Below, one piece after another: positions 37,838-38,549 of a stretch of DNA of 64,000 nt. This DNA comes from Paenarthrobacter aurescens (lineage in GTDB: Bacteria; Actinomycetota; Actinomycetes; Actinomycetales; Micrococcaceae). The notes under the pieces are model-generated. The model saw only the letters and a program-made list of their open reading frames with translations. It was not told the origin of the DNA and did no database searches. The stretch's first letter is position 1, and every line of letters begins with the position of its first letter. The stretch covers positions 1,736,001 through 1,800,000 of the forward strand of contig NZ_CP157456.1 in assembly GCF_041549525.1 (NCBI RefSeq), read 5' to 3'. The translations under genes and the position numbers were made by a program.

Positions 37838-37883
37838 CGTCAACCATTGTTGACGTCAAGCAGCTCGTCAACTAGGGTTGACG
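37838..37883. promoter_or_regulatory. Two inverted-repeat operators CGTCAAC-N4-GTTGACG
   Basis: Copy 1 at 37838-37855 (spacer CATT) overlaps the -35 TTGACG; copy 2 at 37866-37883 (spacer TAGG) overlaps the -10 TAGGGT. Both have perfect 7-bp arms and start 28 bp apart. Such placement on a promoter implies repression, most simply by the HTH protein just downstream. The binding protein is inferred. Confidence 0.75.
37850..37878 (+). promoter_or_regulatory. Promoter of the 37886 HTH gene
   Basis: -35 TTGACG (37850-37855), 17-bp spacer, -10 TAGGGT (37873-37878), then seven bases to the ATG at 37886. A transcript starting near +7 would be leaderless. Both hexamers lie within inverted repeats. Confidence 0.65.
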
Positions 37884-37885
37884 GC

Positions 37886-38101
37886 ATGGAGGTGGACCGG
37901 ATGAAAACGCTGGTTGGATCAATGGATGGCATGGGGCCCGCTGAGGCTCTCTATGCTGTTGCCGAGTTGCAGAAAGAAGTGGGTCGCAGGGAGGCTTCGC
38001 TGGTGCGGGCTGCCCGGCAATCGGGCTTGTCCTGGGAAGCGATCGCTCTTTGCCTTGGCGTGAGCAAGCAGGCCGTTCACAAGAAGTACGGAAAGCAGTA
38101 G
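37886..38101 (+). CDS. Small helix-turn-helix DNA-binding protein
   Basis: A 71-residue protein with a predicted coiled helix (AEALYAVAELQKEVGRREASLVRAAR, about 15-40) leading into a helix-turn-helix at the C-terminus (LSWEAIALCLGVSKQAVHKKYG, about 46-67). The Val-Ser-x-Gln-Ala-Val-His recognition helix matches actinobacterial single-domain HTH proteins that often sit beside Clp N-terminal domain genes; no such gene is adjacent here. The start is ATG 37886, not an upstream in-frame codon at 37847, because the promoter and operators precede it. It has no strong ribosome binding site and is probably leaderless. It is probably autoregulated (inference). Confidence 0.8.
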   Translation: MEVDRMKTLVGSMDGMGPAEALYAVAELQKEVGRREASLVRAARQSGLSWEAIALCLGVSKQAVHKKYGKQ

Positions 38102-38198: not shown

Positions 38199-38549
38199 AT
38201 GGAATACAACGGAAATCCGTCCGAGAAGGCCATTCCTGCCGGCGAACTGGACCGGCGTCACGTGGGCCATTCTGTGAGCTTTCAGCCCAATGATTTCACC
38301 GTCGTCTTCGGAACCATCGCAGGCATCGCAAGGACTGAAGCCCTTGTGTACTTGTCGCTCGACGGGGTTTCAGGCGGGACGCATCTGAAGGATGAATACG
38401 ATCTTCCCATCGACAAGAACGTGTACCTTCAGCTGGACCCGCTGGGCAGCGCAGAAAAGGGAATTTCGGAGGCCGCCAGTTTCGTCAAGGACAAGCTGGA
38501 CGAGATCACCAAAAACCTCAGAGACCGCGACGCCGGCAAGTCCGAGTAG
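38199..38549 (+). CDS. Hypothetical protein, no recognised family
   Basis: A 116-residue soluble protein that I do not recognise. A central segment (HVGHSVSFQPNDFTVVFGTIAGIARTEALVYLSLDG, about 21-55) suggests a beta-barrel or OB-like fold, and a charged helical tail (SEAASFVKDKLDEITKNL, about 90-108) ends the protein. No signal peptide or membrane segment. The start ATG 38199 is supported by AGGGGAAG about 5 bases upstream. It lies between the HTH gene and the glnA1 terminator and is not clearly linked to either. Confidence 0.65.
   Translation: MEYNGNPSEKAIPAGELDRRHVGHSVSFQPNDFTVVFGTIAGIARTEALVYLSLDGVSGGTHLKDEYDLPIDKNVYLQLDPLGSAEKGISEAASFVKDKLDEITKNLRDRDAGKSE

Follow-up and report, generated by a model that had tools for sequence, protein, structure and literature searches.

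A conserved operator pair over the predicted leaderless promoter of a stand-alone relative of the ClpC2 N-terminal domain

Directly upstream of a gene for a 71-residue helix-turn-helix (HTH) protein in Paenarthrobacter aurescens lie two copies of a perfect palindrome, and the same pair precedes most of the stand-alone relatives that we have examined. On the evidence of sequence comparison, the protein very likely represses its own gene through these two operators, a reading to which we assign a probability of about 0.85. The protein is homologous to the N-terminal domain of ClpC2, and sites of this form are scarce elsewhere in the genomes.

The operator pair and its predicted promoter

The features of the locus are collected in Table 1, with positions numbered along the window, that is, the whole stretch of 64,000 nt that was analysed. 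The sequence-only reading had described two copies of CGTCAAC-N4-GTTGACG with 7-bp arms in a 28-bp register, and on re-reading these proved exact to the base, as did the placement of a −35 element under one palindrome and a −10 element under the other. The start codon 7 bases after the −10 element and the open reading frame (ORF) for the HTH protein were likewise confirmed in the sequence. The spacer between the −35 and −10 elements is 17 bp, and the ATG at 37886 sits 2 bases past the second palindrome, with the stop codon at 38099–38101.

Table 1. Features of the HTH locus in window coordinates
Feature	Position	Strand	Basis and remarks
Distal operator CGTCAAC-CATT-GTTGACG	37838..37855		Right arm contains the −35; genome scan and arms kept in orthologues
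Proximal operator CGTCAAC-TAGG-GTTGACG	37866..37883		Centre contains the −10; genome scan and kept in orthologues
Predicted −35 element TTGACG	37850..37855	+	Sequence; 17/18-bp register to TAnnnT kept in the family; absent from generic scan list
Predicted −10 element TAGGGT	37873..37878	+	Sequence; T1, A2 and T6 kept in the family; absent from generic scan list
71-aa HTH protein, stand-alone relative of the ClpC2 N-terminal domain	37886..38101	+	Homology, AlphaFold2 model, dN/dS
Internal Shine-Dalgarno-like GGAGGTG before ATG 37901 (alternative 66-aa start)	37888..37894	+	Sequence; like stretch in orthologues
Helix-turn-helix, residues 50–68 (helices 50–57 and 61–68; SKQAVHKK at 60–67)	38033..38089	+	AlphaFold2, mean pLDDT 89

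In the P. aurescens genome (4,355,454 bp) these two sites are the only ones within one mismatch of CGTCAACN4GTTGACG, while the reversed control gives none and the base composition leads one to expect 0.018 exact sites. Within the window, the two exact matches are conspicuous, but up to three mismatches yield 7 matches against a shuffle mean of 3.28, a modest excess, since 3 of 100 shuffles reach 7, the largest value observed among them. It is important to point out that a generic sigma-70 scan listed no promoter for the HTH gene. The scan missed it because the two elements match the consensus at 8 of 12 positions (3 of 6 in the −10), below the threshold of 9, and the promoter call therefore rests on conservation. 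The ATG at 37901 follows the internal GGAGGTG, so that a 66-aa product is possible; a similar stretch is seen in the orthologues L014, L016, L017 and L018, which start at the equivalent position.

We now turn our attention to the relatives. A pair was counted when two GTCA-N8-TGAC sites, with at most one mismatch each, lay 27–29 bp apart. By this measure the check proposed with the sequence-only reading, conservation upstream of orthologues, came out in favour of the pair, which is found at 114 of 137 stand-alone loci, where the chosen sites have N4 spacers in all 114 cases. The reversed core gives 0 of 137 against a shuffled expectation of 0.01, and the downstream stretch also gives 0. These 137 loci (30 from a search of 59 relatives, together with 27 and 80 picked from a class-wide profile search) are the better-scoring family members and an uneven sample. 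In a named set, the pair was present at 62 of 80 loci, and at 56 of the 72 that lie outside the earlier set, with a control of 0. It is absent from 23 of the 137 and 18 of the 80 family genes, some of which retain the proximal site alone.

The search of the 59 relatives gave a match at E ≤ 0.001 in 36 of them, weaker paralogues counted, and among the 30 loci that it returned only L022, a partial copy, lacks the pair. Class-wide, 218 of 296 genomes contain the family according to the profile search, and in distant members the half-sites are altered, for example to TGTCAG. The arms are kept while the DNA between and around them is not, as seen in those 7 of 19 upstream stretches that share one register. 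The pair is missing for ten stand-alone HTH proteins with KYGG at the end of the domain (L121, L128, L149, L150, L156, L165, L176, L184, L187 and L189), and four others with this ending do have it (L019, L020, L157 and L158).

The arrangement of the promoter is also kept. The first in-frame start codon lies 1–4 nt past the proximal operator in 109 of the 114 paired loci, only one of which has a Shine-Dalgarno-like stretch upstream of the start; in the remaining 5 the start is 14–26 nt away, and all of these have such a stretch. With the best of spacers 16–19 taken and preference given to 17, 100 of the 114 family promoters have all three of the −10 bases T1, A2 and T6, and the spacer is 16 bp in one locus, 17 in 68 and 18 in 45. 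An operator spacing of 27 goes with a spacer of 17 (in one case 16), 28 with 17 or 18, and 29 with 18. As 27–29 bp do not correspond to whole helical turns, it is probably the promoter, and not contact between dimers, that fixes the distance between the operators. The conservation of the pair and of the nearby start thus supports the proposal of a minimal regulator that would be leaderless and self-repressing.

Sites elsewhere in the genomes

It had also been suggested that genome-wide copies of the palindrome might define a regulon, which would make the protein a pathway regulator with its own promoter merely one target among several. This was not borne out, and we consider it unlikely. Among the 59 relatives, exact GTCAAC-N4-GTTGAC occurs at 37 sites in 20 genomes (the reversed pattern once), and 34 of these sites are directly upstream of a family gene. 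The three others, in the genomes G009, G036 and G041, compare with about 10 that composition would predict for an estimated 240 Mb, and no family gene was detected by profile in the 5–6 kb around them. A survey of 150 genomes of the genus, judged on site counts alone, gave 91 exact CGTCAAC-N4-GTTGACG sites in 60 genomes, with never more than 3 per genome, and 6 of the reversed pattern. One of these genomes, G420, has its two exact sites on separate contigs.

Two observations can be put on the side of a wider regulon. With the looser pattern YGTCAAYN4RTTGACR, the P. aurescens genome has 4 further places at one mismatch, and 102 places at up to two mismatches compared with 79 for the reversed pattern; however, no second operator pair is seen among the matches listed. 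The other is a single exact CGTCAAC-N4-GTTGACG in G036, where the HTH gene is likewise present, located at 2358–2375 of L107 (G036:C65:88857-88874) upstream of a lipoprotein-like gene. The product of that gene we take to be a substrate-binding lipoprotein, and the site is perhaps due to chance or perhaps a second target. A regulon is thus unsupported in the P. aurescens genome, in the 59 relatives and in the 150 genomes of the genus.

The protein and its relation to ClpC2 and RelI

Pfam gives for the HTH protein only a sub-threshold match to HTH_23. A profile built from 22 relatives has its best match in the PDB to RelI (9sdc, E 4.6e-8), and it also matches the N-terminal fragment of ClpC2 (8ada_A, E 0.0013). 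Three designed proteins rank between the two, with no single stretch of them passing. A direct comparison by hhalign aligns 54 columns with residues 25–82 of ClpC2-type proteins, with a probability of 97.3% and an E of 1.8e-11. The AlphaFold2 model of the protein has helices at 3–15, 18–45, 50–57 and 61–68, with a pTM of 0.71 and weaker ends. Used as a Foldseek query, the model gave no match at E ≤ 0.001, and neither 8ADA nor 9SDC is among the matches listed, which says nothing against a likeness to them. The likeness to Fis of Escherichia coli is one of fold only, at 13% identity and a Foldseek E above 1, and may reflect just a common helix arrangement.

The gene appears to be under strong purifying selection. 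In the 13 of 18 comparisons with named orthologues that could be computed, dN/dS is 0.01–0.08, values which are rough because synonymous change is near saturation; against L218, for example, there are 39.5 synonymous and 1.5 non-synonymous differences. P. aurescens has one family member and the genome G001 two copies. A phage origin of the gene was considered and dropped, as no phage match was found at E ≤ 1e-3. A plasmid origin was likewise discarded, with just two plasmid records at E ≤ 1e-4, one of which, given its length of 11.85 Mb, is probably a chromosome. An HTH protein with 40% identity is encoded on a plasmid of Agarilytica rhodophyticola (NZ_CP021745.1, 51488–51688); as we take this organism to be a gammaproteobacterium, a transfer out of the actinomycetes is possible.

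The sequence-only reading was aware of no described operator of this form for the HTH family. One is nevertheless already in print, for the HTH is related to the N-terminal domain of ClpC2, and Taylor et al. (2023, PMC10030653), in the part of their text considered here, report that CGTCAAC-n5-GTTGACG recurs upstream of clpC2 across many of their organisms, where it overlaps both putative promoter elements, the −35 and the −10; the gene is probably leaderless. In the same work, ClpC2 of Mycobacterium tuberculosis (Mtb; Rv2667) binds its own operator in EMSA, cyclomarin A inhibits this binding, and in M. smegmatis the clpC2 promoter is derepressed once clpC2 is lost. In the literature searched, this is the only report on CGTCAAC with GTTGACG; stand-alone or split forms with the operator pair were not found there, nor were their spread through the class, the N4 spacer or what these imply for ClpC2.

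The two systems, as far as the published account of ClpC2 goes, have the half-sites CGTCAAC and GTTGACG in common, as well as two copies over the −35 and −10 with the ORF 1–2 nt downstream on a leaderless transcript (2 nt, and predicted, in the window). They also share the homologous HTH domain and self-repression, the latter reported for ClpC2 and probable here. The differences are a spacer of N5 in clpC2 compared with N4 in the window and the stand-alone pairs, and the C-terminal Clp_N domain of ClpC2, which binds cyclomarin and to which Taylor et al. assign DNA binding, but which the window protein does not have. The window protein is therefore without a known ligand.

In the published assignment, dimerisation of ClpC2 belongs to the N-terminal domain (structure of residues 4–72) and DNA binding to the C-terminal domain through R185 and R189 (PMC10030653). 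The R185A/R189A variant binds DNA more weakly, which means that the C-terminal domain contributes in ClpC2. R57A, on the other hand, raises clpC2 mRNA 4.6-fold compared with 2.0-fold for the C-terminal double mutant, which the authors read as loss of the dimer; the terms "HTH" and "helix-turn-helix" are absent from the main text (PMC10030653). In our alignment of 13 ClpC2-type proteins, the residues named by Taylor et al. (D46, R57, F96, F172, E181, R185 and R189) are invariant, and the first sequence has them at the published positions. The counterpart of R57 in the stand-alone family is R44, which is near-invariant. The motif GVTKQAAQKRF lies at 71–81, with the recognition helix at about residues 73–82, so that the crystal fragments reported in that paper, 4–72 and 94–252, both miss this helix. 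Since a 71-aa protein has the operators but no C-terminal domain, we argue that the HTH is the reader, and the N-terminal HTH is likely the part of ClpC2 that reads its operator. The C-terminal domain may help in DNA binding too.

We have also examined whether the recognition helix varies together with the half-sites. Where residue 63 is S or T, all 19 loci show G at base 5 in one or more of the four half-sites (50 of 76 half-sites overall), compared with 6 of 95 loci with A63 (6 of 380 half-sites), and residue 66 varies along with base 6. On the tree, the covariation is not significant, because the 2 supported independent changes (4 over all branches) are too few, and both agree with the expected direction under nearly every random pairing. 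The raw counts are strong but fail on the tree, so that the covariation is a hint of specificity and not proof. Among relatives with Q66, L159, L167, L185 and L188 show GTCAAG in one or more half-sites, which might mark a switch in specificity, and L110 and L117 have GTCAAT instead.

Another option considered was that the HTH protein is an antitoxin of the RelI type, with the operators autoregulating a toxin-antitoxin unit. RelI is the best PDB match and likewise a short HTH protein, and short RelI homologues are mostly encoded beside RelS (PMC13284704). In the part of their text considered here, Han et al. (2026, PMC13284704) remark on the HTH likeness between RelI and ClpC2, but found neither inverted repeats ahead of relSI nor evidence that RelI binds DNA, which sets relSI apart from the window with its operators. 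As RelI is the closest match in the PDB, these findings also weigh against DNA binding by the window protein. No RelS-type toxin was found beside the HTH gene, whose neighbours are a GNAT gene (by Pfam match) and a 116-aa ORF without a Pfam match. The P. aurescens genome gives no match to the BrnT family PF04365 at E ≤ 1, a model that could miss RelS, which reportedly resembles BrnT only weakly in sequence. Of the neighbouring gene clusters, none is common to over 5 of the 21 loci compared (the window locus and 20 loci from relatives), as judged from crude longest-ORF gene calls that missed the GNAT gene of the window, which was traced separately. Given no PF04365 match and no widely common neighbour, we rejected a toxin-antitoxin unit as very improbable.

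That the palindromes serve a different regulator, with the HTH protein a bystander, is very improbable: conservation of the operators by itself leaves the ligand unnamed, but among the 59 genomes exact core sites off family genes occur in G009, G036 and G041 alone, no more than chance would give, and ClpC2, which combines this HTH domain with Clp_N, binds identical half-sites.

Gene arrangements and a model for self-repression

The relatives occur in three arrangements: fused to Clp_N as in ClpC2, followed by a Clp_N gene, or with no Clp_N gene as in the window, where the ORF ends at residue 71 without this domain. The fused form is represented by 14 ClpC2-type genes, taken as mycobacterial and near kin, in which the HTH is joined to the Clp_N region (Pfam tested in 2). 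All 14 of this type, from 18 loci examined, have an operator pair with N5 and a spacing of 28–29 bp. A Clp_N-like gene lies downstream in the same orientation at 57 of the 137 stand-alone loci, with a median gap of 2 nt (20 nt or less in 54), and all 5 downstream genes that were tested are Pfam Clp_N. Around the other 80, no Clp_N-like gene was found within the DNA examined. The P. aurescens genome has two frames with Clp_N above the cut-off, of 834 and 939 aa, which by size were taken for ClpC and ClpB, and two further matches below it (E 0.25 and 0.32).

In the window and in L039, L050, L052 and L053, the HTH gene lies between the GNAT gene and a glutamine synthetase gene; at the other loci of the 21 it is sited elsewhere, some of them in pairs. 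Translations were read as what are presumably GlnA, GlnE, LipA and LipB. The 116-aa ORF downstream of the HTH gene (38199–38549) is 74–91% identical at four other places (L218, L219, L220, which is L039, and L050).

The model that we propose is that the gene product is a stand-alone repressor of the ClpC2 N-terminal type, which would form a dimer joined through its N-terminal helices. Each 18-bp palindrome would take one dimer, with one recognition helix per GTCAAC half-site, and one dimer would cover the −35 and the other the −10 of the leaderless promoter. The protein would in this way set its own level by negative feedback, with the distance between the operators following that between the −35 and −10 (17–18 bp). 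The ClpC2 sensor domain would be a separate gene or a fused domain in the linked relatives, and either lost or never present in the window copy. The lone form looks private: no second pair was seen, no regulon and no toxin partner were found, and the protein probably acts almost solely on its own promoter. We would guess that a protein partner, perhaps ClpC, responds to its level, and not other promoters.

Taken jointly, a broader proposal has slightly less than an even chance in our estimation. It holds that there is a large actinomycete family of one-domain ClpC2-type repressors with the operator pair kept and the sensor fused, split or lost, that the N-terminal HTH is the true reader of the ClpC2 operator, and that the lone gene, being strongly selected with itself as sole DNA target, would act via a protein partner.

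The results bear on ClpC2, the protector of mycobacteria against cyclomarin, an antibiotic that targets ClpC1. They also pose a puzzle, namely a repressor that is strongly conserved although the only DNA target visible is its own gene. Finally, the presence of a sensor-like domain and a repressor as separate adjacent genes in many actinomycetes suggests a widespread sensing or decoy system.
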